33,665 nt of DNA from Candidatus Crickella equi. Its GTDB lineage: Bacteria > Bacillota > Clostridia > Peptostreptococcales > Anaerovoracaceae. The stretch is taken from assembly GCA_018064755.1 (NCBI GenBank), contig JAGHUP010000025.1, positions 1 to 33,665 on the forward strand. The letters are read 5' to 3'. The position numbers were made by a program, and so were the translations under genes. This document shows, piece after piece, positions 3,821 to 29,925 of the stretch (position 1 is its first letter; every line of letters begins with the position of its first letter). The notes below the pieces were generated by a model. That model was not told where the DNA came from and did not search any database. It was given only the letters and a program-made list of their open reading frames with translations.

Positions 3821-3829
3821 AGCGAAAAA

Positions 3830-5297: not shown

Positions 5298-5300
5298 TAT

Positions 5301-8671: not shown

Positions 8672-8705
8672 AATAATACCTCCAGATACATATATTTACG
8701 GACTA

Positions 8706-8730: not shown

Positions 8731-8758
8731 GAATATAGTTTTGAGGAGGGAAATTAGT

Positions 8759-10561: not shown

Positions 10562-10582
10562 CACGAAACAAGGACAATAAGA

Positions 10583-15900: not shown

Positions 15901-16540
15901 GGTGATCAGGGTTCAGGGACTTGTCCTGGAATGCCTTAACAGCGTCCATATTTACCATGTCCTTGAGATCTTCATAATCCCAGATTGCGATGTTCTGAAT
16001 CTCGTGGGATGTTCTGAATCCGTCGAAGAAGTTCAGGAAAGGAACTCTTCCTTCGATTGCAGCCAGGTGAGCTACTGGAGCGAGGTCCATAACTTCCTGT
16101 ACATTGCCCTCAGCGAGCATTGCGAAACCAGTCTGACGGCAAGCATATACGTCGGAGTGGTCACCGAAAATATTCAGAGCGTGAGTGGAAACAGTACGAG
16201 CTGTTACGTGGAATACTGCAGGGAGCAGTTCTCCAGCGATCTTGTACATGTTAGGAATCATCAGCAGAAGACCCTGTGATGCTGTGAATGTAGTAGTGAG
16301 AGCACCAGCTCCAAGGGAACCGTGAACTGCACCAGCTGCACCAGCCTCAGACTCCAGCTCAACAACTTTAACAGTCTTGCCAAAGATGTTCTTTCTTCCT
16401 GCAGCTGACCACTGGTCTACGTAGTCTGCCATAGGTGAAGATGGAGTGATAGGGTAGATTCCGGATACTTCTGTGAAAGCATATGCAACGTGAGCAGCTG
16501 CATTGTTTCCGTCCATAGTCTTAAAATCTCTTTTAATCAT
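12995..16540 (-). CDS. nifJ: Pyruvate:ferredoxin (flavodoxin) oxidoreductase
   Basis: A 1181-residue single-chain enzyme that oxidises pyruvate with CoA to acetyl-CoA and CO2 and reduces ferredoxin or flavodoxin. The N-terminal domain begins with MDGNNAAAHVAYAFTEVSGIYPITPSSPM. Two [4Fe-4S] motifs, CVQCNQCAYVCP (about residues 695-707) and CMGCGVCVTVCP (about 750-761), form the ferredoxin domain. CAGC around 820 belongs to the proximal cluster. GGDGWAYDIGYGGLDH (about 967) is the thiamine pyrophosphate/Mg site, followed by DTEVYSNTGGQ. The length is that of homodimeric enzymes. GAGGAG precedes the ATG. It follows ackA by 94 bases, so pyruvate-to-acetate genes are together; the phosphotransacetylase gene is not in the window. 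Confidence 0.97.
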   Translation of the reverse strand: MIKRDFKTMDGNNAAAHVAYAFTEVSGIYPITPSSPMADYVDQWSAAGRKNIFGKTVKVVELESEAGAAGAVHGSLGAGALTTTFTASQGLLLMIPNMYKIAGELLPAVFHVTARTVSTHALNIFGDHSDVYACRQTGFAMLAEGNVQEVMDLAPVAHLAAIEGRVPFLNFFDGFRTSHEIQNIAIWDYEDLKDMVNMDAVKAFQDKSLNPDHPHLRGSHENGDVFFQHREACNKFYDEIPEVVEKYMAKVNSKIGTDYQLFNYYGAEDADRVIIAMGSICDVAEEVIDNLNANGEKVGLIKVRLYRPFRADKLIAALPKTAKKVAVLDRTKEPGSLGEPLFLDVVTSFAEAGLDVDVIGGRYGLGSKDTPPASVFAVYDELKKANPKKRFTIGIVDDVTNLSLEEKEAPITAPAGTIECKFWGLGGDGTVGANKNSIKIIGDHADKYKYVQAYFQYDSKKTGGVTISHLRFGDKPIKSSYYINKADFVACHNPSYIDKGFKIVQDVKPNGTFLINCQWAPEEVGNHLNAAAKQYIAKNNINLYIINAIELCEKIGMGKRTNTTLQSAFFSLAEIMPKEDAIKYMKEAATKSYLKKGQNIVDMNHAAIDAGADALVKIDVPADWATATDAANDKALEGPAARVTQVKNILAPISNMDGDSLPVSAFMPHVDGEWELGASAYEKRGVAVSVPEWNPATCVQCNQCAYVCPHATIRPYMLNDEEAKNAPEGFKAVPVKAGKGKDVYTYGLAVSPLDCMGCGVCVTVCPTKSLTMKPLEEQLPEQKNFDYAVKNITVKEDTVDNTVKGSQFKTPLLEFSGSCAGCAETSYARLITQLCGDHTYISNATGCSSIWGGPGATAPYTTNAEGHGPAWNNSLFEDNAQHGFGFRTAVETRRENLKKDVHLLLDEGGLPQDVVDAANAWLEEFDCTKCSKETGEKLVAALKKAGIGQNIIDRADLLSEKTVWIFGGDGWAYDIGYGGLDHVLASGKNVNVMVFDTEVYSNTGGQASKASNIGQVAQFAAAGKEVAKKSLSQIAMSYGYVYVAQIAMGANPNQTIKALTEAIAYDGPSLVIGYAPCEMHSIKGGMMNCQLEMKKAVECGYWNLFRFNPALAAEGENPFTLDSKVPAGGYEEFLMNEARYNRLTRENPERAKELFAKSEEEAKKRYDKLVKFVDFYAPEQK

Positions 16541-16582
16541 GTTTTTCTCCTCTTAATAAAATAGTTAAAAGTTATTTATGTG

Positions 16583-16598
16583 AAACATTGTAATGTTT
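16583..16598. promoter_or_regulatory. Perfect palindrome before the pyruvate:ferredoxin oxidoreductase gene
   Basis: AAACATT-GT-AATGTTT is a 7-base perfect inverted repeat with a 2-base centre in the 94-base gap between ackA and the oxidoreductase gene, about 43 bases before the start codon. There is no T-run, so it looks like an operator rather than a terminator. It does not match the Rex or cre boxes I know. Confidence 0.4.
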
Positions 16599-16634
16599 TC
16601 GACCAAAATTATTGATCTTAGCTCGCAGGTATTA

Positions 16635-17825
16635 CTACTTAACGAGTTCAGCTGTATCCATAGCGATCATGAGCTCTTCCTCAGTTGGGATGATGAATAC
16701 CTTAACTGCTGAATCTTCTGTTGAAATCTCAACTTCCTTACCTCTGCAGTTGTTCTTCTCTTCATCGATCTTAACGCCCATGAATGCGAGGTTCTTGCAA
16801 GCCTCATAACGAGCTTCCTTAGAATTCTCGCCGATACCTGCTGTGAATACGATTGCATCAACGTGACCCATCTCAGCTGCATAAGCTCCGATATAGTGAC
16901 GAATTGACTTGTAGAGCATCTCGAGTGCAACCTGTGCATCGTGGTTGCCGCCTTCTGCTGCTGAAGTAACGTCTCTCATATCAGCGGAAACTCCGGATAC
17001 AGCGAGGAGACCGGACTTCTTGTTCAGCTCACTAACGATCTCGCTAGCGCTCTTACCAGTCTGCTCATTGATGAAGCTTACTACTGTAGGATCGAGTGTT
17101 CCGGAACGAGTTCCCATTACGAGACCATCGAGCGGAGTCAGACCCATTGATGTGTCATAGCACTTACCGTTCTTAACTGCAGTGATGGATGAACCATTAC
17201 CGAGGTGGCAAGTGATGATGTTGAGTTCTTCTGGCTTCTTGCCCATAATCTCTGCACAACGCTGAGCAACATATCTGTGGCTAGTTCCGTGTGCACCATA
17301 CTTACGGATGTGAAGCTTGTCATAGTACTCTCTTGGAATTGCATAGAGGAAACTCTCTTCTGGCATAGTCTGGTGGAAAGATGTATCGAATACAACTACT
17401 CCAGGTGCATTAGGGAGAACCTTCTCGCATGCGTTGATTCCAACGAGTGCTGGTGGATTGTGAAGAGGTCCGAGTACTGACAACTCGTCAATGCCCTTCT
17501 TAACTTCTTCAGTAACGATGCAGGACTTATCAAAGAGATATCCGCCCTGTACGATACGGTGACCAACTGCTGTAATCTCATCCATTGATGAAATAACTCC
17601 GTGCTCCTTATCAGTAAGAGCCTCGATAACCAGCTGCATTGCTACACCGTGGTCTGGAAGAGCGACATCCTTATCAAAGATTGTGCCCTCAGAAGTCTTG
17701 TAGTTCATATGACCATCAAGTCCGATTCTCTCACAGAGACCCTTAGCCATTACAGCCTTGTTCTCCATGTTAATCAGCTGATATTTCAGTGATGAACTTC
17801 CTGTGTTAACTACTAAAATAATCAT
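16635..17825 (-). CDS. ackA: Acetate kinase
   Basis: A 396-residue enzyme of the usual family length that makes ATP and acetate from acetyl phosphate and ADP. The first signature NTGSSSLKYQL is at residues 7-17. Further family motifs are GHRIVQGG, FDTSFHQTMPE, YGAHGTSHRYV, HLGNGSSI and GTRSGTLDP. Near the C terminus is FTAGIGENS. AAAGGAAG lies about 10 bases before the ATG at 17823-17825. It is upstream of, and codirectional with, the pyruvate:ferredoxin oxidoreductase gene, completing the route from pyruvate to acetate apart from phosphotransacetylase. Confidence 0.97.
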   Translation of the reverse strand: MIILVVNTGSSSLKYQLINMENKAVMAKGLCERIGLDGHMNYKTSEGTIFDKDVALPDHGVAMQLVIEALTDKEHGVISSMDEITAVGHRIVQGGYLFDKSCIVTEEVKKGIDELSVLGPLHNPPALVGINACEKVLPNAPGVVVFDTSFHQTMPEESFLYAIPREYYDKLHIRKYGAHGTSHRYVAQRCAEIMGKKPEELNIITCHLGNGSSITAVKNGKCYDTSMGLTPLDGLVMGTRSGTLDPTVVSFINEQTGKSASEIVSELNKKSGLLAVSGVSADMRDVTSAAEGGNHDAQVALEMLYKSIRHYIGAYAAEMGHVDAIVFTAGIGENSKEARYEACKNLAFMGVKIDEEKNNCRGKEVEISTEDSAVKVFIIPTEEELMIAMDTAELVK

Positions 17826-17860
17826 AGAAAATCAACTTCCTTTCGTAATTATTTTTCTCT

Positions 17861-17909
17861 AAGTCCAGACTTCCGCATTAAAGTCCAAACATACACTTAC
17901 ATTATAGCA
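17861..17909 (-). promoter_or_regulatory. ackA promoter with a 20-base-period direct repeat downstream
   Basis: On the minus strand an extended -10, TGC-TATAAT, has TATAAT at 17901-17906; the best -35 is the weak TTATAA at 17923-17928. In the leader that follows, AAGTCCA (plus-strand spelling) occurs at 17861-17867 and again at 17881-17887, exactly 20 bases apart, so on the same face of the helix. The first copy also forms AAGTC-CA-GACTT, a small palindrome. These could be a repressor site. Confidence 0.55.
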
Positions 17910-17971
17910 CTAACAGAAATTTTTATAAGCCCAAATGCCACTTTTTTACGCATTTTCAGCCAAAAAAACAT

Positions 17972-18003
17972 AAAAAATCAGGGAGCATATTTTTATGCTC
18001 CCT
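17972..18003 (-). terminator. Intrinsic terminator of the GH3-to-arginase operon
   Basis: On the minus strand AGGGAGCAT pairs with ATGCTCCCT (17980-17988 with 17995-18003), followed by GATTTTTTATG. It lies 17 bases after the arginase stop codon and is the first clear terminator below 27918 on this strand. Confidence 0.93.
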
Positions 18004-18019
18004 GTCTCTGATTTATCTT

Positions 18020-18931
18020 CTAATAATCAACTTTACCAAGTGCCGCGAGAACGAGCTCTGTGGCCAGCTTGGCGGTCTTATTCCTCTCATCCAGAATTGG
18101 GTTAACCTCGACGATATCCATACTGAGCAACTTGCCTGATTTAGCTATCAGCTTGACAGCTAGGAGTGCCTCTCTTGCAGTAATACCGTTTTCAACAGGG
18201 GTTCCTGTTCCCGGTGCATATTCAGGTGTAATCGCATCTACGTCGAATGACAGATGTATACCAACAGTTCCGTTACTTGCATCTGCTATAGCCTGCTCCA
18301 TAACGTCACGCATACCTCTCTTATCGATATCATAAATCGGATAAACGTTGAGACCAGCCTGTTTCATGCGATCCGCTTCTTTCGGGTCGAAGTCTCTTCC
18401 GCCAACCTGTGCTGCGTGAGATGGTTCAACAAAGCATGGTTTCTGTCCATAGTCTACCATTTCATCCGGACCCCATCCACAAACTGCCGAGAATGGCATT
18501 CCATGCATGTTTCCGGTGATAGTAGTCTTGTCACTATTCCAATCACCATGAGCATCAATCCAGATTACTCCGATTTTTCCTTCCTTCTCATAGTGCTTGG
18601 CCACCGCAGCAACACTTCCAGCTCCTATACTATGGTCACCGCCCATCACGATTGGAATTCTTCCCTCTTTCAGAGAATCTCGAACAGATTGGTATACCTG
18701 CTTGTTCGTCTCAACGACCTGATCAAACCGCAACATATTCTTTCTATCTTCGCCTTCACGAGGAGGAATAATATCGCCCTTGTCATAAACGTCATAACCC
18801 AGGTCTTCAAGATTTTCCTTGATATTCGCATAGCGAATTGCCAGAGGACCCATAGCTACACCCTTTCTGGATGCACCAAAGTCGATCTGAACTCCTACAA
18901 GATCGATTCTTTTATTATTATTAAGATTCAT
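18020..18931 (-). CDS. rocF: Arginase (ureohydrolase family)
   Basis: A 303-residue enzyme of the arginase/agmatinase family, expected to hydrolyse arginine to ornithine and urea with two Mn2+ ions. Metal-binding motifs are GGDHS, DAHGDWN and SFDVDAITPEYAPGTG; GNMHGMP is also present. The RocF-like beginning (IDLVGVQIDFGASRKGVAMGP) favours arginase over agmatinase. The chosen start is the ATG at 18929-18931 behind AGGGG; a longer frame to 18985 would overlap the preceding regulator gene by 50 bases and has no better ribosome site. It is 4 bases after the DtxR-like gene and last in the operon. No other arginine-pathway gene is in the window. Confidence 0.9.
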   Translation of the reverse strand: MNLNNNKRIDLVGVQIDFGASRKGVAMGPLAIRYANIKENLEDLGYDVYDKGDIIPPREGEDRKNMLRFDQVVETNKQVYQSVRDSLKEGRIPIVMGGDHSIGAGSVAAVAKHYEKEGKIGVIWIDAHGDWNSDKTTITGNMHGMPFSAVCGWGPDEMVDYGQKPCFVEPSHAAQVGGRDFDPKEADRMKQAGLNVYPIYDIDKRGMRDVMEQAIADASNGTVGIHLSFDVDAITPEYAPGTGTPVENGITAREALLAVKLIAKSGKLLSMDIVEVNPILDERNKTAKLATELVLAALGKVDY

Positions 18932-18935
18932 GCTA

Positions 18936-19307
18936 TTACCCCTTGTTCTCTTCGACGTATTTGCAGATTGCCAGATAGGTATCATTACTGATAACGTGTT
19001 CTATCTGACATGCATCTTCCTCGGCTTGTTCCTCTTCTACTCCTAGCAATTCTAAGAATGATACCAAAGCGACATGTCTCTCGTAAGTACGCTTGGCGAT
19101 TTCAAGTCCAGGTGGTGTGAACGTTATAGGTCCGTTCGACTCCATATTGATATATCCGCTTTCTCTAAGTCTTTTTACAGCATAAGAAACGCTCGGTTTG
19201 GTAACACCGAGATGTTTTGCTATATCAATTGATCTGATATAGCCGTATTTATTCTGGAGAATTAACATTGTCTCCAGATAATCTTCTGCTGACTGTTGAA
19301 TTTTCAT
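18936..19307 (-). CDS. Short DtxR/MntR-family metal-dependent regulator
   Basis: A 123-residue transcription regulator with only the two N-terminal domains of the family: a winged helix-turn-helix (about 1-65, with IAKHLGVTKPSVSYAVKRLRESGYI) and a dimerisation/metal domain. It lacks the C-terminal SH3-like domain of DtxR, as MntR does. Probable metal ligands are D9, E12, H78, C100, E103 and H104. D9 is the residue MntR has, while C100 sits where MntR has Glu and DtxR/IdeR has Cys, so metal preference is uncertain. Its start has only a weak ribosome site (AGAGAATAAC). The neighbour downstream, arginase, is a manganese enzyme, which makes Mn2+-linked control a reasonable guess. Confidence 0.88.
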   Translation of the reverse strand: MKIQQSAEDYLETMLILQNKYGYIRSIDIAKHLGVTKPSVSYAVKRLRESGYINMESNGPITFTPPGLEIAKRTYERHVALVSFLELLGVEEEQAEEDACQIEHVISNDTYLAICKYVEENKG

Positions 19308-19323
19308 TATATTAAGTTATTCT

Positions 19324-19911
19324 CTAGCCTACATTACCTTGTACTGGCACGAAAATATCATTTGCTGTATCCATCAGCAAGTCCTGAGTGCAGCCATTGT
19401 CCATTCCAAGGCTGTAGAGAATTCCAGGCGCTACATCAAGCCAAGCGATGAATCCTGCTTCTCCCTCGTTAAAAGCACAAATGCCCTCACAGTAATCAAC
19501 ATCTACGCTTGCGCAAGCACTCCATTCATAATTCAGACCAGATAGAGCAGCACCAATCTGAGTTCCATCGTTCAGTGCATCAACCAACTTGTCCATTGAA
19601 ACCTCTGTTCCATCGGTATTAGCCATAATGTTTGTAATGCCTGTTGGCTGTGCTCTATAACAGAATTCTTTGCCGTCAACTGTGAATGCTACCTGGGAAA
19701 TCATTTCCTGACCATCAGCCTCAATATATGAATACTGAACGTCCTCTGCATTTTCAGGAGCCTTGATATCAACACCACCCTTTTCAATGAGTTCATCGTA
19801 TGTGCACTCAATTACAGGATTAGCAACTTCGCTACTTTCTTCCTTTTCTCCACATGCACACATAGCAAACACCATCATTAACGACAGCATAACAACTAAA
19901 AACTTTTTCAT
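19324..19911 (-). CDS. Small secreted lipoprotein of unknown function
   Basis: A 195-residue protein with a lipoprotein signal peptide: MKK, a hydrophobic stretch (4-16) and MCAC-G, with C20 the likely lipidated cysteine, followed by the acidic, serine-rich linker GEKEESSE. The mature part (about 35-195) contains DIKAPENAEDVQYSYIEADG and QVAFTVDGKEFCYRAQP, a pattern I associate with extracytoplasmic lipoproteins of gut Clostridia, but I know no function for them. Four cysteines in the mature part could form disulfides. The start is the ATG at 19909-19911 behind AAGGAGG; the longer frame to 19974 reads through the gene for the small peptide and is rejected. It begins 1 base after that peptide's stop codon. 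Confidence 0.82.
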   Translation of the reverse strand: MKKFLVVMLSLMMVFAMCACGEKEESSEVANPVIECTYDELIEKGGVDIKAPENAEDVQYSYIEADGQEMISQVAFTVDGKEFCYRAQPTGITNIMANTDGTEVSMDKLVDALNDGTQIGAALSGLNYEWSACASVDVDYCEGICAFNEGEAGFIAWLDVAPGILYSLGMDNGCTQDLLMDTANDIFVPVQGNVG

Positions 19912-19912
19912 T

Positions 19913-20059
19913 TTATTTATCCTCCTTATTTTTCTCATGAAGGAAAGTCTCTCCTGCCTTATTTGCTCCAGCAATCAGCAATGCACCGCCTGCAACACCA
20001 ACGCCGATAATCTTCAGCAGAGTCTTAGCTAAACTAGGTTTATTCTCGTTCTTGCTCAT
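19913..20059 (-). CDS. 48-residue membrane peptide
   Basis: A small open frame missed by length cut-offs. It starts at the ATG 20057-20059 with AGGAGG 6-7 bases upstream, and it ends at 19913, 1 base before the lipoprotein start. It fills the gap between two operon genes. The peptide begins MSKNENKPSL, has one hydrophobic, glycine- and alanine-rich helix (about residues 17-33, IIGVGVAGGALLIAGAN) and a charged end (ETFLHEKNKEDK). The stop and the ribosome site of the next gene overlap, which indicates translational coupling. The function is unknown; it might be a subunit or regulator of the membrane proteins in the operon. Confidence 0.75.
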   Translation of the reverse strand: MSKNENKPSLAKTLLKIIGVGVAGGALLIAGANKAGETFLHEKNKEDK

Positions 20060-20073
20060 AACATACCTCCTAT

Positions 20074-21000
20074 CTATAACAAGGTAATTACTACAGTGCC
20101 GCCTATCATAGCAAGCACGCCTATGATCTTAATCGCAGTGACGGGTTTCTTATCGATACCCAAGAAACCTACTGCGTCAATAACAAGTCCGCCAATCATA
20201 AAACCTATCAGGTTCATAATTGATACCATACCAGCTCCGATAATAGGTGCTGTAATTGCGTTAGTACCAACAATAATTACACCCATCGAGCCACCGGTTA
20301 CCATATACCATTTGAACGGAATATCTTCGCCCTTGGAAAACAACCCATTATGTCCTCTAGCGATGAAGAGAAGAGCAATCAACAATGCCGTTCCAATAAA
20401 TCCAACAGACATTGATATTGTCGTTCCCATCCAGCTGTTTCCAGCTACTTTTCCAAGTGTTCCATTGATTGCAATCTGTAGTCCACAGAGAACTCCAACG
20501 ATGAATGCGAGAATCATATACAGAGGTGGATACTGCTGATGAGCAGCGCCCTCTTCACTAGTAGTTCTCGATGCCAGAATAACTCCGCCAATCAGTATCA
20601 ACGCACCAATTGCGCGAGATACAGTCATTGAAATCTGTGGTGATTCAAACAATCCGAACTGGTCAATAATCAGGCTCGCCGCTATCTGGCCGAATGATGT
20701 CATAACGACTACCATAGCGCTACCAATATGTGGCAGGCATACTATGCTAAGAACTACAATCCCAACTCCGCATAAGCCACCAGTCCATATCCACCATGGA
20801 TACTGGGCGATGTCGGCAAACGGAATATGAATCCCGCCCTGGGTTAGCACATCAATTAAGACAAGGATAATAACTGCGGTACCAAAAGAAACCAACGTAG
20901 AGATATACGGTGATTTAACTTTAGCTCCCAGACTACCATTGATGCTAGTCTGGGTCGGCTGAGCCAGGCCAGCAATTAATCCTAAAACATATGCAAACAA
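20074..21000 (-). CDS. YdcZ/DUF606-type DMT superfamily transporter (TTG start)
   Basis: A 308-residue membrane protein with about ten hydrophobic segments made of two homologous halves. The first begins LGLIAGLAQPTQTSINGSLGAKVKSP and the second LAFIVGVLCGLQIAINGTLGKVAGN, the duplicated (Q/N)xxINGxLG pattern of the DMT_YdcZ (DUF606) group. Substrates of this group are mostly unknown. The start codon is TTG (20998-21000), directly after the TAA of the preceding gene (21001-21003), with AGAAGGA about 8 bases upstream; no ATG is available nearby in frame. The zero-base spacing points to translational coupling with the phosphatase-ATPase gene. Confidence 0.85.
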   Translation of the reverse strand: MFAYVLGLIAGLAQPTQTSINGSLGAKVKSPYISTLVSFGTAVIILVLIDVLTQGGIHIPFADIAQYPWWIWTGGLCGVGIVVLSIVCLPHIGSAMVVVMTSFGQIAASLIIDQFGLFESPQISMTVSRAIGALILIGGVILASRTTSEEGAAHQQYPPLYMILAFIVGVLCGLQIAINGTLGKVAGNSWMGTTISMSVGFIGTALLIALLFIARGHNGLFSKGEDIPFKWYMVTGGSMGVIIVGTNAITAPIIGAGMVSIMNLIGFMIGGLVIDAVGFLGIDKKPVTAIKIIGVLAMIGGTVVITLL

Positions 21001-22977
21001 TTACTTATCCTTCTTTTTTATATCTTCTTCCTTAGTGAACATTTTAGTAATAGACAGAATATTATGATGTTCTTCATATCTGTAGGAAACATCATCCATC
21101 TGTTTCTTAACGATGAAGATACCAAGACCACCGATATCTCTTTCCTCTGCAGGGAGATTAGTAAGTGGATCCTCCTGTGTAAGTGGATTGTAAGGAGTAC
21201 CGCTATCTATGAATTCGATAGTAAGACCAGTTACCTTATCTCCCTCTTCAACAGGAATTACATTCAGTGTGGCCTGTCCAACTCTTGGTTCGCCTGTTTT
21301 CTCATCAATATATGCAAATTTAGCTATGTTACTGTACAGCTCGTCAATTGCGATATTAATCTTAGCTACATCAGTCATAGGCACATTGTACTTGGACATG
21401 ATTCCTTCTACGAATTCTGTAACGTAATTAACATGCTCTGTTGTAGTTGTAACAGTAATTGAATTGTTTGAGCGAGTTCCAAGACCATCAGGTCCAAGAT
21501 AATTGAATGCCAGCATTGTAATATCATCGAACTGCGGAGCGACATCAACGAATTGATTAACATCAACCTTAACTGCCTCAATCATTTCCTCAGTGTTCTT
21601 CCACTCCTTGGAATTAAGGCATTTCTGAAGTCTATCCTCACCGTACAGCTCGTTATTAGCATCTGTTGCCTCGGTTACACCATCTGTATACAGGAAGATA
21701 GTATCTCCCGGATACATACTGAAAGATGAAGTCTTATATCTAAGGCCTTCCATTCCTGCAAGTACGAATCCTGGCTTGGTATGTAAATACTCGAACTCAC
21801 AATTGGATCCTGGCAGTCCGTCTTCAACTTTCTCACCCCTTCTTACCATAGGAGGATTATGTCCTGCGTTAACAGTGTACACACGACCTGTCTTCAGGTT
21901 AATAATTGCCATGAATGAAGTAACGAACAATCCGGCGTCATTGCCCTCGCAGAGGAGCTCGTTTACTTTGGTATAAACCTGACCAGCATTGATGCCCATG
22001 CATGCGTGATCCTTGATAAGAGTCTTAGCTGTTACCATGAACAAAGCTGCAGGTACGCCCTTGCCCGATACGTCTCCGATTACCAGTCCGAGATGGTCTT
22101 CGTCGATTAGGAAGTAATCATAGAAGTCTCCTCCTACTTCCTTGGCAGGTGTCATGCTTGCGAAGATATCAATATCATTACGCTCTGGGAATGGTGGGAA
22201 AATTGTTGGCAGCAGATTAGCCTGAATATCCGTAGCAAGACTCAGCTCTGATTCGATACGTGAGCTCTTGTTAACGATTTCTCTCTGTTCAAGTACCATC
22301 TCCTTACCTCTGCCGGCAACCTTGATACAAATCAAAGCAACCATAGAGTACAGAATAACCGTAGGAACATAGTGATACCTAATGTATGCATGTTTGTAGA
22401 TTTCAAGATCAACCAATTCACCTACAACATCAGCAAATCTTCTGCCATTAAGTTCTATAACATCGGCCCCGGCTATCGCATTATTAACGTTGTTGAGATT
22501 AAGCATACCGATATCTGCAGTCATCTGAACGAAAACCCACATCAGACCCAGCGATACAATAATGGTCTGAATTGTGAAGTTCTTATTGTAATATCTTGTT
22601 GATACAACCAGTGGAAATACGATACACAGTTCAACTGTATAGGTCATGATTGATGACATCAACGCAATAACCAGAATATATTGTAGCATCAGCAGATACT
22701 TAATCCACGGCTTTTCATTCTTGAAAATCTTGGCAATAATGCACGGAATAATCAATAGCGGTGTGCATCTGAAGAAAGCTGCATCGAAAACGCTCTGGTC
22801 TAAGGCAAAAGCATTGAAATACTTATTGGCTGCCCAGCAGAGTCCAAGGACAACAGCAAGCAGCAGCATGCTGATCATCAAGGTTTTATTACCTTCCTGC
22901 TCACTCTTCCACAACACTTCTTCAGTTTTAAACTGGTCTTTAGCAAATTTCTTAAGTCTGGCACTTGCCGCACTCAT
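21001..22977 (-). CDS. Membrane SpoIIE-type phosphatase fused to an RsbW-like ATPase domain
   Basis: A 658-residue protein. Residues 30-222 hold about six membrane segments. A coiled linker (about 223-245) leads to a PP2C phosphatase of the RsbU/SpoIIE type (about 245-493), with metal-binding VGGDFYD (281-287), GDVSGKG (301-307), TDGVTEA (431-437) and DD (484-485). Residues about 505-650 are an anti-sigma-kinase-like HATPase domain with an intact N-box (DELYSN, N550), G1 box (D591-S-G593) and G2 box (GGLG 616-619). In partner switching, such kinases phosphorylate and such phosphatases dephosphorylate STAS anti-anti-sigma factors. Having both in one chain is notable. The start has AGGGG upstream. 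Confidence 0.92.
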   Translation of the reverse strand: MSAASARLKKFAKDQFKTEEVLWKSEQEGNKTLMISMLLLAVVLGLCWAANKYFNAFALDQSVFDAAFFRCTPLLIIPCIIAKIFKNEKPWIKYLLMLQYILVIALMSSIMTYTVELCIVFPLVVSTRYYNKNFTIQTIIVSLGLMWVFVQMTADIGMLNLNNVNNAIAGADVIELNGRRFADVVGELVDLEIYKHAYIRYHYVPTVILYSMVALICIKVAGRGKEMVLEQREIVNKSSRIESELSLATDIQANLLPTIFPPFPERNDIDIFASMTPAKEVGGDFYDYFLIDEDHLGLVIGDVSGKGVPAALFMVTAKTLIKDHACMGINAGQVYTKVNELLCEGNDAGLFVTSFMAIINLKTGRVYTVNAGHNPPMVRRGEKVEDGLPGSNCEFEYLHTKPGFVLAGMEGLRYKTSSFSMYPGDTIFLYTDGVTEATDANNELYGEDRLQKCLNSKEWKNTEEMIEAVKVDVNQFVDVAPQFDDITMLAFNYLGPDGLGTRSNNSITVTTTTEHVNYVTEFVEGIMSKYNVPMTDVAKINIAIDELYSNIAKFAYIDEKTGEPRVGQATLNVIPVEEGDKVTGLTIEFIDSGTPYNPLTQEDPLTNLPAEERDIGGLGIFIVKKQMDDVSYRYEEHHNILSITKMFTKEEDIKKKDK

Positions 22978-22998
22978 TTCTAATCCCCCTATAATACC

Positions 22999-24690
22999 TT
23001 AAAACTCTTGCATTCTACTCTTATACTCGAGACAAATCATAGTAATATCGTCGAACTGAGGTGCCTCAGCTACGAATTCATCGATATCAGATTTAACCGC
23101 TGGCAGCAATTCGTGAATTGACTTGCTAGCATGCTTCTCAAGTGAGTTCTCCAATCTCTCCATTCCGAAGAGATGATTATCCTTGTTAGTTGCTTCAGTA
23201 ACTCCATCAGTATACTCGAAAACTCTATCACCAGGTTCGAGCATGATTGAGTTAGACTTGTATTTAATGCCTTCCATGCCAGCGAGCACGAATCCAGCCT
23301 TGATTGGGTATGGATTGAATTTTTCACCGGCTTTGGAGATAAATGGTGTCTCGTGTCCAGCGTTAACATATCTAAACTCTCCTGTAACGAGGTCGAGAAC
23401 GCCTTCGAAAGCTGTAATAAACAATCCTTCAGAATTGGACTGGCACAGCAGATCATTTACCTCAGTAAATACATCGCCAAGGTCTACACCTGGTGTAGTG
23501 TGGTCCTTGATAAGTGTCTTACCGATAACCATGAACAGTGCAGCCGGTACTCCCTTACCGGATACATCAGCTGCAACGATTGCCACGTGAGTATCATCTA
23601 CCATAAAGAAGTCATAGAAGTCTCCTCCTACTTCCTTGGCAGGGTTCATTGTTGCGTATACATCAACCTCTTCAATTTCAGGAAATGCCGGAAAGATACA
23701 TGGCAGCATTGATGCCTGTATGTTAGTAGCTACATCAAGCTCTGCTCCAATACGTTCCTTTTCAGCAGTAACCTTAGTCAGGTTGTCGATATAATCATTG
23801 AGATCATGTTCCATCTTAAGCACTGATTTGGAAAGGTTCTCAATTTCGTCACCAGTCTTGATGTTCTCCAGCTTGTCAGACATCTGGTTCTCGTTCTCAA
23901 CGAAGTTTGCTGTTTCATGAGCAACCGTATTGATTGGACTAATAACCTTCTTCAGAAGATATGCTACGAAAATTGCAATTCCCAGAACTACGATTAAGAA
24001 TGTGAAAGCAAGAGTCTTCTTCAGGTATGCAGACAGCGATGACTGAATTGTAGTCATAGGGATTTCAACCCCCAGTGCGAGATTTTCATCATCACCCATA
24101 GGCACTGTAATCAATGCTGTTGTGTTATATCCGTAATCAGACTGAGATTCGAAATAATTATTAACTCTCTTGCCAGTCTTTACAATTTGTGTTGTTGGCT
24201 CGATGAAATCAGGATTGATAGGGCTCTGGTTACCCAATACATATGAATATTCTTCTTCTGCATAACAATCGAATACATATGTGAATGGGTTCCATCCGTC
24301 CTTTGTTCCCTTATAATCATTCAGAACATCAAGGTTGCAATAAACCAGATAAATATCATTGGCACCCATATTCTCTCTGAGATTCAGGAACTGTGCTCTA
24401 ATTTTCTGATACTTATCACTTGCGATGATTTCGTCAATCTGTTTCTGGTCGAAATTGCCGTTTGAATAATCTTTGGCAATCTTTCCATATTCCTTAGCTG
24501 TTGCTTCATCAATCAATCCAGCAGCAGAATGAGCAATCTGATACGCCTGATCATTGTACTGCTTCTCAATATCCGCTTTGAATTCGTTGTAACCTGTTAT
24601 GCAGGATACTGTAATAATAGCAAGTCCAAGGATTACAAATCCAAGGATAAACTTCATGGTAAGTTTGGATTTCTTACTCTTATTTTCCAT
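22999..24690 (-). CDS. Membrane sensor with HAMP and SpoIIE-type phosphatase domains
   Basis: A 563-residue signalling protein. Membrane helices at about 12-32 and 228-248 enclose an extracytoplasmic sensor of about 195 residues. A HAMP domain (about 249-305) and a short coiled coil follow. The RsbU/SpoIIE-type PP2C phosphatase occupies about 315-556, with VGGDFYD (354-360), ADVSGKG (374-380), TDGVTEA (494-500) and DD (547-548). The layout matches an external-signal-driven phosphatase acting on a phosphorylated regulator. Its catalytic domain is very similar to that of the following gene (NIQASMLPCIFPAFPE here against DIQANLLPTIFPPFPE), so the two probably arose by duplication and may share a target. 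It is 26 bases below the MATE fusion gene and 21 bases above the next gene. Confidence 0.92.
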   Translation of the reverse strand: MENKSKKSKLTMKFILGFVILGLAIITVSCITGYNEFKADIEKQYNDQAYQIAHSAAGLIDEATAKEYGKIAKDYSNGNFDQKQIDEIIASDKYQKIRAQFLNLRENMGANDIYLVYCNLDVLNDYKGTKDGWNPFTYVFDCYAEEEYSYVLGNQSPINPDFIEPTTQIVKTGKRVNNYFESQSDYGYNTTALITVPMGDDENLALGVEIPMTTIQSSLSAYLKKTLAFTFLIVVLGIAIFVAYLLKKVISPINTVAHETANFVENENQMSDKLENIKTGDEIENLSKSVLKMEHDLNDYIDNLTKVTAEKERIGAELDVATNIQASMLPCIFPAFPEIEEVDVYATMNPAKEVGGDFYDFFMVDDTHVAIVAADVSGKGVPAALFMVIGKTLIKDHTTPGVDLGDVFTEVNDLLCQSNSEGLFITAFEGVLDLVTGEFRYVNAGHETPFISKAGEKFNPYPIKAGFVLAGMEGIKYKSNSIMLEPGDRVFEYTDGVTEATNKDNHLFGMERLENSLEKHASKSIHELLPAVKSDIDEFVAEAPQFDDITMICLEYKSRMQEF

Positions 24691-24716
24691 CTTACTTCCC
24701 CCTTAGTTCTAAATAG

Positions 24717-26420
24717 TTATATATATACCAACAAAGTATTAATACCTAATGTGCTCTGATAGTCTATCTTCTGTGCCATCTTCTCAATCATATCAACACC
24801 AAGATAGTCTAAGCCCGCTTCTTCTTTATTCTGTTTAAATGGATTGTAATAATTACCGCCTGATCTAATACGAAGTATTATATCGTCATCGTGTTTGAAT
24901 ACTCTCATATCCATTTCGCCCTTAAACTCAAGGGATTTTTCGGCGATTATTACCAAAATCTCCTCGATGGCCAAGCTAAGACACATAGATTTCTTAGGCG
25001 ACAATTCGAAGGTCTCGCAGAAATCAGATACGCCCTGTGATGCATCCGATATATCACCTGTCTCTGCTTGAACAATTTTGGAATAAATATTAGCTCCTTT
25101 TTCATACTCCACATCCACCAGGAAAAATCTGCACAATCTTTTCTCCCTTGGAAATGCAGTCAATAGCAGCATTACAAGCATTGTCGAAAATTCCGCTAAT
25201 GGATAAGCCATCCAGATATACTGCGGAATACCCCTTAACGCAAACAAGAATCCTACCGGGAACACCAATCCTCTTAGAATCGTGCTGGTGTTAGCCAGAT
25301 ATATTCTAAGAATTGTATTGTAGTAATTTGCGTATATAGAGTTCATTGTGCCCGGAATTATACTAGCTGCAAACATTAATATTGCAAATGTACAACTTAA
25401 TGAGCTTCCGAACAAGGCCGGTATGTAATCTGTTGTCATTATACACAGAATGGCAAAAGCCGCTGACAGCACCACTCCGCTCTTGAGTTCCTGCTTCATA
25501 AGAGCTCGGATACCTTGGAACTCTCTTCCTCCATATAGAAGCGAAATCATTGCTGTTCCTGTCTGCGGTACGCCGTTCTGAATGCAAATCGAAAATTCAT
25601 TCAAATTAGACAGAATTGCGAATATCGCTACCAGAGAATCTATTCCAATACTCTTGAAAATCTGATTGAACAGGAAAATCTTAAGCGCATCGGTAATATT
25701 ATTAAACGCAGCCTGGCTGCCTTGAACACAAATAGAAACGACTTCTTTAGCCTTTGGAAGCTTAGGCAGTAATGCGAAATTGCTGTGGTCTGTGTACAAG
25801 AAAATCAATGCAAGAATGCAAGCTGTTGCGGTTGCTATTCCACTTGCAAGTGCTGCTCCGCCAATTCCTTTGTTCCACACGAAGAGATACATGTAATCGA
25901 GAACAATGTTCATCACCGTCATCAGAATCATTGTAAATGATGATCTCTTCAGTTTTCCTTCAAGTCTGAGATAGAATACCGCATTGTACTGCAGTACCTT
26001 GAATACTCCGAACAAAGCCGTTACTGTCAGATAACTGTATACGTAACTATACGTCAATGGTGTCGACAGCAATTTAGCAATAGGCTTAGCAAATACGAAC
26101 GTTCCTCCGCATACTATTATTGAAGCCATTATTGATAAGAACAGTCCCACCGAATAAAACCGCTTGGCCTGATCCATTCTGTTTTCACCAGCTTCAACCG
26201 ATGAAAGAATCATCGCACCGGTTGCAATCAGTCCACCTACCGTACACATTACAAGATAGAATGGAAGGCACTGATTAACGGCTGCAAGTCCAGCATCGCC
26301 AAGTCTCTGACCTACCAGAATTCCATCGAAGAAGACGTTAACGGTAGCGCCAAGTACCATAATGATATTCGGAATGAGGTCTTTTCTATATACTTTATTG
26401 ATTAACGTGCTACCTTCCAC
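24717..26420 (-). CDS. MATE-family exporter fused to a degenerate HATPase domain
   Basis: A 567-residue protein. Residues 1 to about 425 are a MATE-type multidrug/toxin exporter with about 12 membrane segments (family-like NVFFDGILVGQRLGDAGLAAVN near residues 28-49). Residues about 440-567 form a cytoplasmic domain that resembles the RsbW-like HATPase of the neighbouring gene. However, the N-box reads EEILVI with I491 where Asn binds Mg2+, the G1 box Asp is replaced (RSGGNYYNPF, 519-528), and only GLDYLGVDMI resembles the G2 box. ATP binding is therefore doubtful, and the domain may act as a protein-binding module. MATE proteins are usually about 450 residues, so this is a real extension. The start overlaps the GH3-like gene by 11 bases. 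Confidence 0.85.
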   Translation of the reverse strand: MEGSTLINKVYRKDLIPNIIMVLGATVNVFFDGILVGQRLGDAGLAAVNQCLPFYLVMCTVGGLIATGAMILSSVEAGENRMDQAKRFYSVGLFLSIMASIIVCGGTFVFAKPIAKLLSTPLTYSYVYSYLTVTALFGVFKVLQYNAVFYLRLEGKLKRSSFTMILMTVMNIVLDYMYLFVWNKGIGGAALASGIATATACILALIFLYTDHSNFALLPKLPKAKEVVSICVQGSQAAFNNITDALKIFLFNQIFKSIGIDSLVAIFAILSNLNEFSICIQNGVPQTGTAMISLLYGGREFQGIRALMKQELKSGVVLSAAFAILCIMTTDYIPALFGSSLSCTFAILMFAASIIPGTMNSIYANYYNTILRIYLANTSTILRGLVFPVGFLFALRGIPQYIWMAYPLAEFSTMLVMLLLTAFPREKRLCRFFLVDVEYEKGANIYSKIVQAETGDISDASQGVSDFCETFELSPKKSMCLSLAIEEILVIIAEKSLEFKGEMDMRVFKHDDDIILRIRSGGNYYNPFKQNKEEAGLDYLGVDMIEKMAQKIDYQSTLGINTLLVYI

Positions 26421-27918
26421 TCATCCACTCCTGTACCTGCTTATTGCTAACAATTACTTTAGGTTTAATTTGTCCCTTTTGAATCTTGAAAAAGCTCTCA
26501 GTATTCTGCTTGTGAAGGATTGGTAGGCCAATGTCTCCACGGTCTCTCAGATCTTCATAGTCGAAAGCCATCTTTTTCAACTCTCTGTCGAACATAACCG
26601 CAAATTCGCCGTCAGCATCAAGTGCATCAACGAAGATAACATATCTATTAGGATACACACTTGCGTCAATTCCGACAGCAAACTGGTTAAATGTATAATT
26701 CTCTTTCAACTTGTCCATGACAAGCGTAATATCCGCATCGTCAACCTTCTCACCAGCAATATTGATAATGCTGTTAATTCTTCCATGAATCGTTACAACA
26801 GGTGTCTCACCCAAGAACTCCTTAACCCTAACTCTATCGCCTGTATGATATCGATAAATTCCTGAGAAAGTTGTTACTATCGGCTCGTACTCGTTACCAA
26901 CAACCAGCTCATGTGGTAGCAGCACTTCATTTGCATACGCATCATAGTACTCATAAAATGCCATCCTTGGCATCATCGCATAGGACGCCTCGTTCATTTT
27001 GACAGGGATACCCATAGTGCACTCAGTCTGAGCGTATATATAATAGAAAATATCCGTATCTTCACCAATTAATTCTTTCAGATCTCTATCAAATACTTCA
27101 TATTTTCCGCCGCCAACGCCAGTAACAAATTTCAGTTCTGGGAAAAGCCTCTTCATTAGCGGTTCATCGCTGTCTGTAGTGAAGATGCGTTCGATATCGG
27201 CCAGTCGTTCATCAGAAAATTCCTGTTGTAGCAGCATGGCCTTGTCACGCTCGGACAATTCAACACTAAAAGTGTGGCTTCTGATATCATGTAGCAATTG
27301 CTTCCAATTTTCCTTCATATAGTTGAATACTATGAGAAGGTCATACAGGAAGATTGAGCAGAAATATCTAATGTCGCTATGCGCAAATGCGATATACGAC
27401 TTAATATATGGGATATTCTTAACTGTATCTAAGAAAAGGAAATCTTTATCGTAGAAATCTTCCAAACGGAAGCTACCACATTTGTAAGCTGTATCATATA
27501 GAGCTGCTGACAACAGCATATCCTTGTCTGCAACATTAAAAATCGAAATATTTAAGCCCTTATCCGTTGGCATGTCCAATAGATAGAAGGGCATCTCGTA
27601 GTTATATCCGCCAGACAAACTCATAGCAAGTGCCGACACTGTAAACCTCTTACGCTTACCAAGGGTTCCGGAAGTTGCCAGATTATAGCCAACTTCATAT
27701 GAATAGCTATTGCCATTCGGATAGTCTTGCGCAGTAGTCAGCGGTACCCTTCTACGGAATTCCTCTATGCTGTGTATGTCATCAAAATGATACTTTCTTC
27801 CTATCTCTGTGTCTGTATTATCTTTCAAAATACTCATGAGATTGTTGTCGTTAATCTCATCAGCATTATTAAAATCAGTAAATAATTTATTAATTCTATC
27901 TTCGAACTGTCTTGACAT
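26410..27918 (-). CDS. GH3-like acyl-adenylating enzyme
   Basis: A 502-residue member of the adenylate-forming GH3 group. Motifs: VPLTTAQDY (58-66), SGTLGKRK (83-90, the phosphate-binding loop, usually SGTTxGxxK), YAQTECTMG (295-303), YHTGDRVRV (357-365), GRINSIINIAGEK (379-391) and a C-terminal GQIKPK (482-487) like the lysine region of GH3 proteins. Plant GH3 enzymes activate a carboxylic acid with ATP and join it to an amino acid; substrates of bacterial members are mostly unknown. It is the first gene of the operon, behind GGGGGA and a promoter at 27977-27982. The coupled exporter gene suggests that its product is secreted, but that is inference. Confidence 0.87.
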   Translation of the reverse strand: MSRQFEDRINKLFTDFNNADEINDNNLMSILKDNTDTEIGRKYHFDDIHSIEEFRRRVPLTTAQDYPNGNSYSYEVGYNLATSGTLGKRKRFTVSALAMSLSGGYNYEMPFYLLDMPTDKGLNISIFNVADKDMLLSAALYDTAYKCGSFRLEDFYDKDFLFLDTVKNIPYIKSYIAFAHSDIRYFCSIFLYDLLIVFNYMKENWKQLLHDIRSHTFSVELSERDKAMLLQQEFSDERLADIERIFTTDSDEPLMKRLFPELKFVTGVGGGKYEVFDRDLKELIGEDTDIFYYIYAQTECTMGIPVKMNEASYAMMPRMAFYEYYDAYANEVLLPHELVVGNEYEPIVTTFSGIYRYHTGDRVRVKEFLGETPVVTIHGRINSIINIAGEKVDDADITLVMDKLKENYTFNQFAVGIDASVYPNRYVIFVDALDADGEFAVMFDRELKKMAFDYEDLRDRGDIGLPILHKQNTESFFKIQKGQIKPKVIVSNKQVQEWMSGR

Positions 27919-27935
27919 TTTCCCCCATCTTTCTC

Positions 27936-27982
27936 GGGGTCAAACCAGCCGACCCCAAAATATCAATACATATTTTATTATA
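27936..27982 (-). promoter_or_regulatory. Promoter and leader hairpin of the GH3-to-arginase operon
   Basis: On the minus strand a perfect -10, TATAAT (27977-27982), has a weak -35 (TTAATT, 17-base spacing). Downstream, GGGGTC (27951-27956) pairs with GACCCC (27936-27941) across a 9-base loop. This hairpin ends 17 bases before the start codon, just in front of the ribosome site. It could be a repressor site or a translational control hairpin; there is no T-run after it. Confidence 0.5.
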
Positions 27983-28027
27983 CTATTTTCCCACCAACAA
28001 ATTAAGCCTATTATCGAATAAGTGCAA

Positions 28028-28056
28028 AGAAAAACGAGTGAGATTTCTCTCACTCG
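28028..28056 (-). terminator. Intrinsic terminator of rpsB-tsf
   Basis: On the minus strand CGAGTGAGA pairs with TCTCACTCG (28035-28056) around a 4-base loop, followed by TTTTTC. It is 28 bases after the tsf stop codon and separates this operon from the GH3 operon below. Confidence 0.93.
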
Positions 28057-28084
28057 CTTTCGTTATTAAATGGATTATCCTAGA

Positions 28085-29182
28085 TTACTTTCCAGCCATC
28101 TGTGCAGCTACTTCTGCAGCGAAGTCCTCGTTCTTCTTCTCGAGACCTTCACCAACTTCGAATCTAACTACCTTAGCAAGGGAGAGTCCCTTATCTACAG
28201 ATTCGAGGTACTGAGAAACAGTCTGCTTTCCATCCTCTGCCTTTACATAAGTCTGCTCGAGCAGGCAGATTTCCTTGAGCTGCTTCTTGATACGGCCTTC
28301 AACGAGTCCGCCGAATACCTTATCAGCAATGATGTTAGCCTTATCAGCTACTGCCAGCTCAGCGAGCTTCTGCTTAGCTTCGTCTGAAAGGAAGTTAGGC
28401 AGATAGTTGAAGTTGAATCCCTTCTCTGCTCTCTTGTCCTCAAGAGTCTTAACGTCTTCAGCTGACCAAACGCCATCAACAGCCTTGTCGAGAAGCTTGT
28501 TGAGGATTGGCTTTGGCAGTGTGAATGGATCGTTCAGTGCACTCTCAACTGTAACCTTCTTAATTCCCTCAAGTTCTTCTGCGGAGATGTCATCTCTGCT
28601 TACATACTGTGGGTTCATAGCTGCAACCTGCATTGCAACGTTCTTAAGAGCTTCCTTGTTAGCATCGTTGTCTTCACCGTTTCCTGCGATGATAACGCCG
28701 ATTCTTCCGCCGCCGTGTACGTATGATGTAAGAACATCACCAGCAGCCTTCTCAATTCTACGGAGAGACATGTTCTCACCGATCTTAGCAATCTTAGCAG
28801 TCAGAGCTTCGCCAACTGTAGTTCCGTCATATGCCATAGCCTTGAAGTCGTCCATTACAGTGTTCTTAGCTTCAAGTGCAAGCTTAGCAAGGTCATCTAC
28901 GAATGTGATGAACTCATCGTTCTTAGCAACGAAGTCTGTCTCGGAGTTAACCTCTACGAGTGCAGCGGACTTTCCATCTGCTGCTACTGCGATCTTAACC
29001 AGACCTTCAGCTGCGATTCTGCCAGCCTTCTTAGCTGCCTTAGCGAGTCCCTTTTCCTTCAGGTATTCAACAGCCTTTTCGATATCGCCTTCAACCTCAA
29101 CGAGAGCCTTCTTGCAATCCATCATTCCGGAGCCAGTCATCTCACGGAGTTCTTTAACTAACTTAGCAGTAATCTCAGCCAT
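28085..29182 (-). CDS. tsf: Translation elongation factor Ts
   Basis: A 365-residue nucleotide exchange factor for EF-Tu. The N-terminal UBA-like domain ([24 protein letters not shown]) and the contact region [10 protein letters not shown] near residue 80 are unmistakable; HGGGRIGVI is at about 156. The protein is about 70 residues longer than common EF-Ts. The extra part lies at about 216-285 (from [14 protein letters not shown] to [13 protein letters not shown]), before the conserved [15 protein letters not shown]. It directly follows rpsB (2-base gap), the usual order in bacteria. Confidence 0.97.
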
Positions 29183-29184
29183 GA

Positions 29185-29925
29185 TTATTCCTCCTCTGCT
29201 ACTACTTCTTCAGCCTCTGCCTCTTCAGCTGGAGCAAAGCTCTCGCCCTGCTTAGCCTCAACGATAGCGTCAGCCATGCATCCTGTGATCAGCTTAACGG
29301 CTCTGATAGCATCGTCGTTAGCTGGAATTACGTAATCAACATCGTCAGGATCGCAGTTAGTATCAACGATACCTACTACTGGAATGCCGAGGATCTTAGC
29401 TTCCTTAACAGCAATCTTTTCCTTCTTAGGGTCTACTACGAACATTGCAGCAGGGATTCCCTTCATATCCTTAATTCCGCCGAGGTACTTTTCGAGCTTT
29501 TCAGCTTCTGCTCTCATCTTCAGAGCTTCCTTCTTAGCGTACTTATTGATAGTTCCATCCTCGATCATCTGGTTGATCTCAGCCAGTCTCTCGATTCTCT
29601 TGCTGATTGTCTTGTGGTTAGTGAGCATTCCACCCAGCCATCTCTCGTTAACGAAGTACATTCCGCATCTCTCAGCTTCATCCTTGATTGCAGCCTGAGC
29701 CTGCTTCTTAGTTCCAACGAAGAGAACTGGTCTTCCAGTTGCTCCAACCTCTCTCATGAAATTATATGCATCTTCTACGAGACCAAGTGTCTGCTGCAGG
29801 TCGATGATATAGATTCCATTTCTCTCTGTGAAGATATAAGGAGCCATCTTAGGGTTCCATCTTCTAGTCTGGTGACCAAAGTGTACACCAGCTTCCAGTA
29901 ACTGTTTCATTGTAATTACTGACAT
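29185..29925 (-). CDS. rpsB: Ribosomal protein S2
   Basis: A 246-residue 30S subunit protein with the family start [27 protein letters not shown]. It also has [30 protein letters not shown] and [13 protein letters not shown]. The acidic tail after about residue 230 ([13 protein letters not shown]) is common in Clostridia. GGAGG lies 9 bases before the ATG at 29923-29925. It forms an operon with tsf. Confidence 0.98.

Follow-up and report, generated by a model that had tools for sequence, protein, structure and literature searches.

A run of nine genes on the minus strand

The stretch of DNA analysed here, called the window below, is contig JAGHUP010000025.1 of Candidatus Crickella equi (33,665 nucleotides; contig C7 of a 1.39-Mb genome that is 82% complete). 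It carries nine minus-strand genes that follow each other from position 27918 down to 18020, as was found from the list of open reading frames (ORFs) and the sequence. The first four genes encode a GH3-type ligase, a MATE transporter with a C-terminal HATPase domain, and two SpoIIE-type phosphatases; genes of these kinds recur together in other Clostridia, and this module is the main subject of the present report. The features of the run are as follows.

26410..27918, minus strand: GH3-type adenylating amide synthetase, 502 amino acids, core enzyme of the module (Pfam GH3, 101.2 bits; GH3_M, 60 bits; GH3_C, 26.5 bits; cut-off 23.6 for each)
24717..26420, minus strand: MATE transporter with a C-terminal degenerate HATPase domain, 567 amino acids, GTG start (MatE 70.9 bits against a cut-off of 24.9)
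24732..25070, minus strand: pseudo-HATPase domain of this MATE protein (Ile at the position of the N-box Asn and Ser at that of the G1 Asp)
22999..24690, minus strand: membrane SpoIIE-type PP2C phosphatase with an N-terminal sensor region, 563 amino acids (SpoIIE 149.8 bits against a cut-off of 25; membrane and sensor parts read from the sequence)
21001..22977, minus strand: second membrane SpoIIE phosphatase, 658 amino acids, which carries an intact HATPase kinase domain of the RsbW-like kind (SpoIIE 147.7 bits against the same cut-off; HATPase_c_2 62.6 bits against 27.4)
21043..21447, minus strand: kinase-type HATPase domain of the SpoIIE-HATPase fusion (HATPase_c_2, residues 511–645)
20074..21000, minus strand: DMT_YdcZ transporter (PF04657, 203.5 bits), a genus neighbourhood gene outside the module
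19913..20059, minus strand: small protein of 48 amino acids, outside the module, with a match to a segment of a longer protein from the genus neighbourhood
19324..19911, minus strand: lipoprotein, placed neither with the module nor with the genus neighbourhood genes (signal and lipobox read from the sequence; no Pfam family above cut-off)
18936..19307, minus strand: DtxR/MntR-type regulator (Fe_dep_repress and Fe_dep_repr_C above cut-off), a genus neighbourhood gene
18020..18931, minus strand: arginase, 303 amino acids (TIGR01229, 266.3 bits against a cut-off of 227.6), a widespread genus gene
17979..18004, minus strand: terminator-like hairpin with a T-rich tail, closing the run (terminator scan)

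A first-pass annotation, made from the sequence alone, had described nine minus-strand genes separated by anything from an 11-base overlap to 26 bases, and the ORFs and the sequence agreed with it. The overlap of 11 bases is that of the GH3 and MATE-HATPase genes. The gaps that follow are 26 bases (MATE-HATPase to SpoIIE), 21 (SpoIIE to SpoIIE-HATPase), 0 (SpoIIE-HATPase to DMT), 14 (DMT to the 48-amino-acid gene), 1 (to the lipoprotein gene), 16 (lipoprotein to DtxR) and 4 bases (DtxR to arginase). The TTG start of the DMT gene was backed by homologues, and a longer arginase ORF from 18985, to which homologues gave no backing, was rejected. The family names that had been given to the GH3, MATE-HATPase, two SpoIIE and arginase genes were recovered with Pfam and NCBIfam profiles.

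The terminator that had been placed at the end of the run was found by the scan as the hairpin listed above; between 16500 and 29500, 13 terminator-like sites were counted against 7.2 expected from shuffles. The promoter that had been placed at 27977–27982 fared less well. A TATAAT is present at 27982–27977, no good –35 box was seen, and the promoter scan did not list the site; its 27 promoter-like sites in 16500–29500 against 29.9 expected gave no promoter above chance. A hairpin with a T-run, read by eye at about 28056–28030 on the 3′ side of tsf, suggests that the upstream unit ends there.

Conservation of the ligase, transporter and switch genes

Alignment of 44 GH3 proteins, the window's included, revealed invariant residues at S83, G84, K90, K173, E299, E323, Y344, E345, T349, G353, Y355, R356, Y357, D361, P373, R380, E390 and K485. 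The residues of the nucleotide-binding motifs and the C-terminal catalytic lysine (S83, G84, K90, E299, Y355-R356-Y357, D361 and K485) are kept in the window GH3. The only NCBIfam model that matched this protein was that of OlsH (NF052613), and the score of 47.5 bits was far below the cut-off of 620; with the same model, four other module GH3s scored 48–84 bits.

Of 391 genomes searched from the class, 23 gave GH3 matches, the window's own genome included. In all three of the other best-matching genomes the GH3 gene was located inside a SpoIIE operon, with the contents STAS, GH3, MATE-HATPase and SpoIIE (locus L242), STAS, GH3 and SpoIIE-HATPase (L243), or MATE-HATPase, ATP-grasp, GH3 and SpoIIE (L244). 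A profile of the window GH3 aligned with these three proteins was used to scan 84,980 species genomes and gave 252 GH3 relatives, the best 80 of which underlie all counts of GH3 loci below. A locus was regarded as a module locus if SpoIIE and/or MATE-HATPase lay on the same strand within 6 kb of GH3. The counts were taken from profile scans of all ORFs, and longest-ORF gene calls hid some genes under antisense ORFs. The profiles were iterated from window seeds, and closely related loci do not count as independent cases. Plain-MATE loci (L150–L165), picked by hand with the exclusion of some near a SpoIIE gene, do not enter the comparisons.

It was found that SpoIIE was present in 48/80 GH3 loci and MATE-HATPase in 41/80, in 37 cases each at a distance of no more than 200 bases. 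Both were present in 39/80 loci and either of them in 50/80. A kinase-type HATPase occurred in 34/80 and STAS in 29/80 (same strand, within 6 kb). SpoIIE lay downstream of GH3 in 48/48 loci. MATE-HATPase preceded GH3 in 31 loci and followed it in 10; the window order of GH3, MATE and SpoIIE is the rarer one, common to 9 loci with both genes. When the loci were ranked by similarity to the window GH3, the module was present in 36 of the 40 at the top, in 10 of the 14 below them and in 4 of the last 26. The first-pass annotation had suggested looking for this neighbourhood across Clostridia, and it is indeed conserved there, with orthologous proteins. It had also named a lack of conserved gene order in relatives as evidence against its proposal: the cassette is conserved across the class, and no such cassette was seen in the genus.

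The median pairwise identity was 32.6% for GH3, 34.1% for MATE, 46.9% for SpoIIE, 57.0% for the kinase and 59.6% for STAS. On these values the switch is conserved and the ligase and exporter are variable, which fits different products under one control.

Common descent was examined with two trees. The GH3 tree of 107 rows contained a clade of 53 (SH-aLRT 100), consisting of the window, 48 module loci and four rows without the module; two of these four end within 400 bases after GH3 (L264 and L272), and the other two are L295 and L302. Outside this clade, 2/54 rows qualified as module loci, L299 and L092. In L092 a glycosyltransferase is fused to GH3, SpoIIE lies at a distance of 5.7 kb, and the MATE-HATPase gene is on the opposite strand. 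Rows shorter than 450 residues were left out of this tree (the split GH3 of L293, and L200), and L092 was cut to its last 560 residues. The window GH3 lay within a starred set that comprises 40 rows, of which 38 are module rows. Its exact place is unsure, because its own branch is long (1.6); its highest identity to any other is 35%.

In the MATE-HATPase tree of 94 rows, the window protein was found in a starred clade of 39. The other 38 rows of this clade all lie within 4.2 kb of a GH3 gene, a distance at which 41 rows of the tree are found, and none of the 47 genus MATE paralogues belongs to it. The window GH3 and MATE share their ancestry with those of the module. The window MATE (TIGR00797 91.1 bits, under the cut-off of 147.4) is 39–43% identical to the proteins of seven aligned loci with the window gene order, 29–34% to the other 25, and 19–25% to genus paralogues in long matches. 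A genus search of 47 genomes with it gave 1235 bits for its own genome and, as the next best match, 125 bits at 23% identity; because of this low value, no other genus genome shows the cassette. We read the module as a cassette that has probably spread between lineages.

GH3 matches were also obtained in 5/35 same-genus relatives and in a sixth genome (G063), with 24–30% identity in the longer matches and in other surroundings. Orthology of the window GH3 with these was rejected, as nine full-length genus GH3s together with L092 fell outside the module clade and have other neighbourhoods. Single-sequence GH3 scans of genome contigs and viral contigs gave no relative.

The phosphatase and kinase parts of the switch appear intact in the window. 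The SpoIIE aspartates D357, D375, D495, D547 and D548 were invariant in five sequences, and the SpoIIE protein of 563 amino acids shares, over its length, 60% identity with its L267 counterpart, the MATE proteins of the two loci being 43% identical. The N-box, G1 and G2 motifs are intact in the kinase domain of the SpoIIE-HATPase fusion, a domain that reaches 50% identity with module kinases encoded as separate proteins; the fusion scored 39.3 against the cut-off of 145 of the RsbW equivalog model and thus did not reach it. Among the small HATPases near GH3, the N-box Asn, the G1 Asp and the G2 glycines were intact in 30/31, the exception being a piece of 148 amino acids in L275 that comes from a split MATE; of the HATPases fused to SpoIIE, 3/3 were intact, as is the window's. 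In STAS proteins near GH3, taken together with two of the window's genome, a Ser before Ala-Gly was kept in 33/33 rows, which, by analogy with RsbV and SpoIIAA, would be the phosphorylated Ser. The two STAS genes of the window's genome lie on other contigs, each beside a SpoIIE gene (G000:C24 43959–45477 and G000:C16 4790–5864). The C24 gene adjoins a SpoIIE-HATPase gene, and its product shows 60–71% identity to the ten module STAS proteins closest to it. The earlier remark that no STAS protein is nearby holds for the window, then, and a STAS gene of the module subfamily exists elsewhere in the genome.

The HATPase domain at the C-terminus of the MATE proteins showed the opposite pattern. In a single-sequence search the window domain was a weak match (E 0.061, below the Pfam cut-off), and profile-profile comparison with hhalign matched module MATE tails to RsbW-like HATPases at 96.6% probability. 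The boxes of the window domain are not intact, with Ile at the N-box Asn and Ser at the G1 Asp. In a motif table of same-strand HATPases within 6 kb of GH3, 35/36 GH3-adjacent MATE HATPases lacked both the N-box Asn and the G1 Asp; after realignment of the MATEs within 6 kb of GH3, both key residues were lost in 41/45. Both were absent in 6/6 larger HATPase ORFs (358–1133 amino acids) as well. Among genus MATE-HATPases, both residues were lost in only 5/55 and both kept in 42/55.

A proposed switch acting on the transporter, and rival explanations

On balance, we consider it somewhat probable that genes 1–4 (27918–21001) are a conserved Clostridia module in which a GH3 conjugate is exported by the MATE and a STAS switch docks on the inactive HATPase domain of the transporter. 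From the domain contents we infer the following scheme. GH3 would adenylate an acyl acid and join it to an amine, probably an amino acid, and the MATE would export the resulting acyl-amine conjugate. The RsbW-like kinase, here fused to the second SpoIIE phosphatase, would phosphorylate STAS, and the membrane SpoIIE phosphatase would strip this phosphate upon a signal. Dephosphorylated STAS would then most likely bind the C-terminal HATPase domain of the MATE, which, having lost its ATP-binding residues, could serve as a docking site, and thereby gate export. In the window's genome STAS would act in trans, the most likely candidate being that at G000:C24. The first-pass annotation had proposed that the operon makes and exports an acyl-amino acid or a similar conjugate under phosphatase switching; this is retained for genes 1–4, since STAS and RsbW-like genes occur in the operons of relatives, and given up for genes 5–9.

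Several findings weigh against this scheme. No STAS gene is present in the window operon, and the two STAS proteins of the genome may serve only their own SpoIIE, because each gene adjoins one. The window GH3 stands on a long branch and may have shifted or be decaying. Kinase and STAS accompanied the full-size GH3, MATE-HATPase and SpoIIE genes in only 21/38 loci, and in 11/50 loci SpoIIE and MATE-HATPase were not both seen (some of these loci were cut by contig ends and one had a split MATE, but neither applies to the others). L295 and L302 fall in the module clade of the GH3 tree and have no module. The GH3s of the genus, and most of those in the order and class, sit in other neighbourhoods: in the other 17/20 GH3 stretches fetched at class level, neither SpoIIE nor MATE-HATPase lay within 6 kb of GH3, and at order level, where GH3 was found in 20/393 genomes with the own one included, a MATE-HATPase near GH3 was seen among 16 fetched stretches only in L200, whose GH3 is shortened. 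In L247 and L248, a STAS gene lies about 11 bases from the upstream one of two tandem GH3 genes of another clade, with no SpoIIE or MATE-HATPase within 6 kb, so that the link of GH3 and STAS may be wider than the module.

Genes 5–9 appear to lie outside the module. An arginase match was found in 33/47 genus genomes, own included, the best matches of the others being 65–71% identical. In 20 genus arginase stretches that were fetched (18 with arginase in the gene calls), DtxR was present in 11/20 (76–81% identical), a longer relative of the 48-amino-acid gene, encoding proteins of 92–158 amino acids, in 5/20, and DMT in 4/20 (42–48% identical); the window GH3, MATE and both SpoIIE proteins had a match in 0/20. 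Arginase, DMT and DtxR were likewise present in 0/80 GH3 loci. In L076 and L083, DMT is followed by a nitrilase-like gene, the small gene and a membrane gene, then by DtxR, which is on the opposite strand, and by arginase; the nitrilase and membrane genes were read from the sequence, and L079 and L084 are alike by gene lengths. Because DMT, the small gene, DtxR and arginase recur there without the cassette, genes 5, 6, 8 and 9 represent a modified segment of this genus neighbourhood, to which the cassette was fused. For the lipoprotein, which is assigned to neither group, no clear relative was found, the best BLASTP match among the fetched proteins having an E value of 0.002. The proposal that the nine genes form one functional system, with genes 5–9 as parts of it, was rejected on these two null counts.

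In Bacillus, sigma factors are controlled by SpoIIE, RsbW-like and STAS proteins, and the switch might do the same here through a sigma/anti-sigma pair encoded elsewhere, with GH3 and MATE as co-expressed cargo and the MATE HATPase tail as a functionless relic. The degeneracy of this tail agrees with such an explanation, and sigma factors were found somewhere in all 29 module genomes searched, among the matches listed. Near the module they are rare: sigma-like ORFs lay within 6 kb of GH3 in only 2/50 loci (L314 and L291), as judged with a home-made profile from 14 stretches, one of which, L350, was probably taken on the wrong strand. A neighbouring sigma factor was therefore rejected as the conserved output of the switch. 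The tail, moreover, is retained in module MATEs with the same two residues lost in nearly all of them; a relic would be expected to disappear or to degrade randomly. We regard this transcriptional explanation as rather unlikely.

MATE proteins commonly export drugs and plant GH3 enzymes inactivate hormones by conjugation, so that the module could also be a defence against a toxic carboxylic acid, which GH3 would detoxify by conjugation next to an ordinary drug exporter. Against it stand the biosynthetic and export genes beside some copies (NRPS, sugar-transfer ATP-grasp and NHLP exporter genes, described below), though these copies are a minority, and we consider such a defence unlikely. An even more doubtful alternative is that arginase feeds GH3 and that the nine genes are one acyl-ornithine pathway, with ornithine being N-acylated as by OlsH. 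It would account for the sole NCBIfam match of GH3, for the substrate preference of OlsH for ornithine, as given in extracts of PMC12493201, and for the arrangement of nine genes in one run with a terminator at its end. It was rejected, being contradicted by the very low OlsH score, by the mutual absence of arginase and the cassette genes from each other's loci, and by the absence of an OlsI-like hydrolase family among the nine genes in Pfam searches.

Partner switches are textbook regulators of sigma factors; among the proteins compared below, SiaA is of the SpoIIE type and EDS5 is a MATE protein. The module was compared with several known systems. As in RsbU-RsbV-RsbW and SpoIIE-SpoIIAA-SpoIIAB, the phosphatase, the STAS antagonist and the HATPase kinase occur together in the 21/38 module loci mentioned above; unlike these systems, the module has no conserved neighbouring sigma factor and carries an extra degenerate HATPase on the transporter, and the window operon has no STAS gene. 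In SiaABCD of Pseudomonas aeruginosa, according to extracts of PMC8457831 and PMC7647112, SiaC binds and activates the diguanylate cyclase SiaD, with the phosphatase SiaA in the switch. A phosphorylation switch with a phosphatase thus controls an enzyme directly, and SiaC-SiaD (PMC8457831, in extracts) is a precedent for direct enzyme control by the module switch. The SiaABCD enzyme differs, being a diguanylate cyclase, and its name set has no GH3 or MATE; no cyclase family was found by Pfam among the nine window genes, and the window SpoIIE proteins scored 62.5 and 46.7 bits with the SiaA model, against a cut-off of 700.

Both the ligase and the transporter have further counterparts. OlsH of Singulisphaera acidiphila is described in the extracts of PMC12493201 as a GH3-type enzyme making N-acyl ornithine, with homologues mainly in Bacteroidota, Pseudomonadota and planctomycetes. 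It resembles the window GH3 as a bacterial GH3-type enzyme yielding an N-acyl amino acid, and its model is the only named NCBIfam one that the window GH3 matched; it differs in that this match is far under cut-off, with no OlsI-like gene and another neighbourhood. SulP/SLC26 transporters (PMC8256260) carry a partner-switch domain on the cytoplasmic end; there the STAS itself is fused to the transporter, and here the HATPase partner is fused to the MATE. In plant salicylate synthesis (PMC11416591, in extracts), the GH3 conjugating enzyme PBS3 works with the transporter EDS5. That pair belongs to a plant hormone pathway, which has no phosphorylation switch, and common descent with the pair here is not implied.

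No description of this gene set, or of MATE-HATPase fusions under partner switching, was found in open-licence PubMed Central papers. Within that literature the first-pass statement that no described system has this set still stands, and the GH3/MATE-HATPase/SpoIIE module is apparently undescribed. What would be new is a partner switch with a ligase and a transporter as its constant companions. A recurrent variant with such neighbours would extend partner switches to the direct control of metabolite production, and the variable ligase and exporter suggest that a single type of control governs a family of distinct small molecules, which offers a handle for genome mining. As kinases are intact and transporter HATPases inactive, the docking idea lends itself to a direct test. 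More broadly, and tentatively, it is possible that in Clostridia biosynthetic operons one phosphorylated STAS gates acyl-amine uptake, conjugation and export directly, without transcription, through HATPase pseudokinase domains on transporters, namely MATE exporters and apparently, in a few copies, an amino-acid ABC ATPase, and through STAS domains on some enzymes. If true, this would be a partner switch acting on metabolic flux.

Additional genes in other copies and side observations

Further genes accompany some module copies. Ligases clustering with a sugar-transfer ATP-grasp family were found in 12/49 loci (two members checked by Pfam). In L262, a non-ribosomal peptide synthetase (NRPS) gene at 2–7267, with two domains each for adenylation and condensation and, at its end, a reductase-type NAD_binding_4 domain, precedes MATE-HATPase, STAS and GH3. 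Genes of NHLP bacteriocin export ABC transporters lie on the 3′ side of the module in L321 (13760–18640) and L267 (15147–17850); a set in L265 is similar to them by length and clustering only. ORFs of 358–366 amino acids with a HATPase match were seen in 7/80 loci (L279, L285, L308, L313, L314, L334 and L337). The only one of the seven that was checked, L279 113–1204, encodes an ABC ATPase most like those of amino-acid transporters, with a degenerate HATPase tail. In L308 (257–1447), STAS is fused to an APH-type phosphotransferase domain (Pfam). Long STAS ORFs were also noted in L266 (4538–5701) and in L286 (at 8804 and 11872).

Possible contractile-injection genes were seen in L281, where 15386–16522 and 3299–6310 gave an eCIS (extracellular contractile injection system) core domain and a baseplate-assembly match below cut-off, and in L275 and L282, which have AAA ATPases beside the module copy.

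MATE-HATPase genes also occur in other company. Those of L092 and L200 lie beside other kinds of GH3 gene. In the genus, MATE-HATPases were found beside matches to a home-made ATP-grasp profile in L096, L100, L101 and L130 (Pfam check on L101 only), with SpoIIE in 3/4; these four MATEs have lost the G1 Asp in 4/4 and the N-box Asn in 3/4. Another genus cluster combines MATE-HATPase with a SpoIIE protein of 1070–1094 amino acids (L102, L109, L118, L123, L126, L128 and L134), and a plain MATE is present in six of them.

Elsewhere in the window, plus-strand genes at 8288–11908 encode a protein that combines the C-terminal domain of an iron-only hydrogenase large subunit with Fe-S domains, followed by a protein of 441 amino acids with a SpoIIE domain. 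This pair, which includes the third SpoIIE gene of the window, is possibly a hydrogen-sensing pair. On the minus strand at 3963–7019, a penicillin-binding transpeptidase gene and a gene for an FtsW/RodA-type protein with an N-terminal FHA domain are arranged in tandem.

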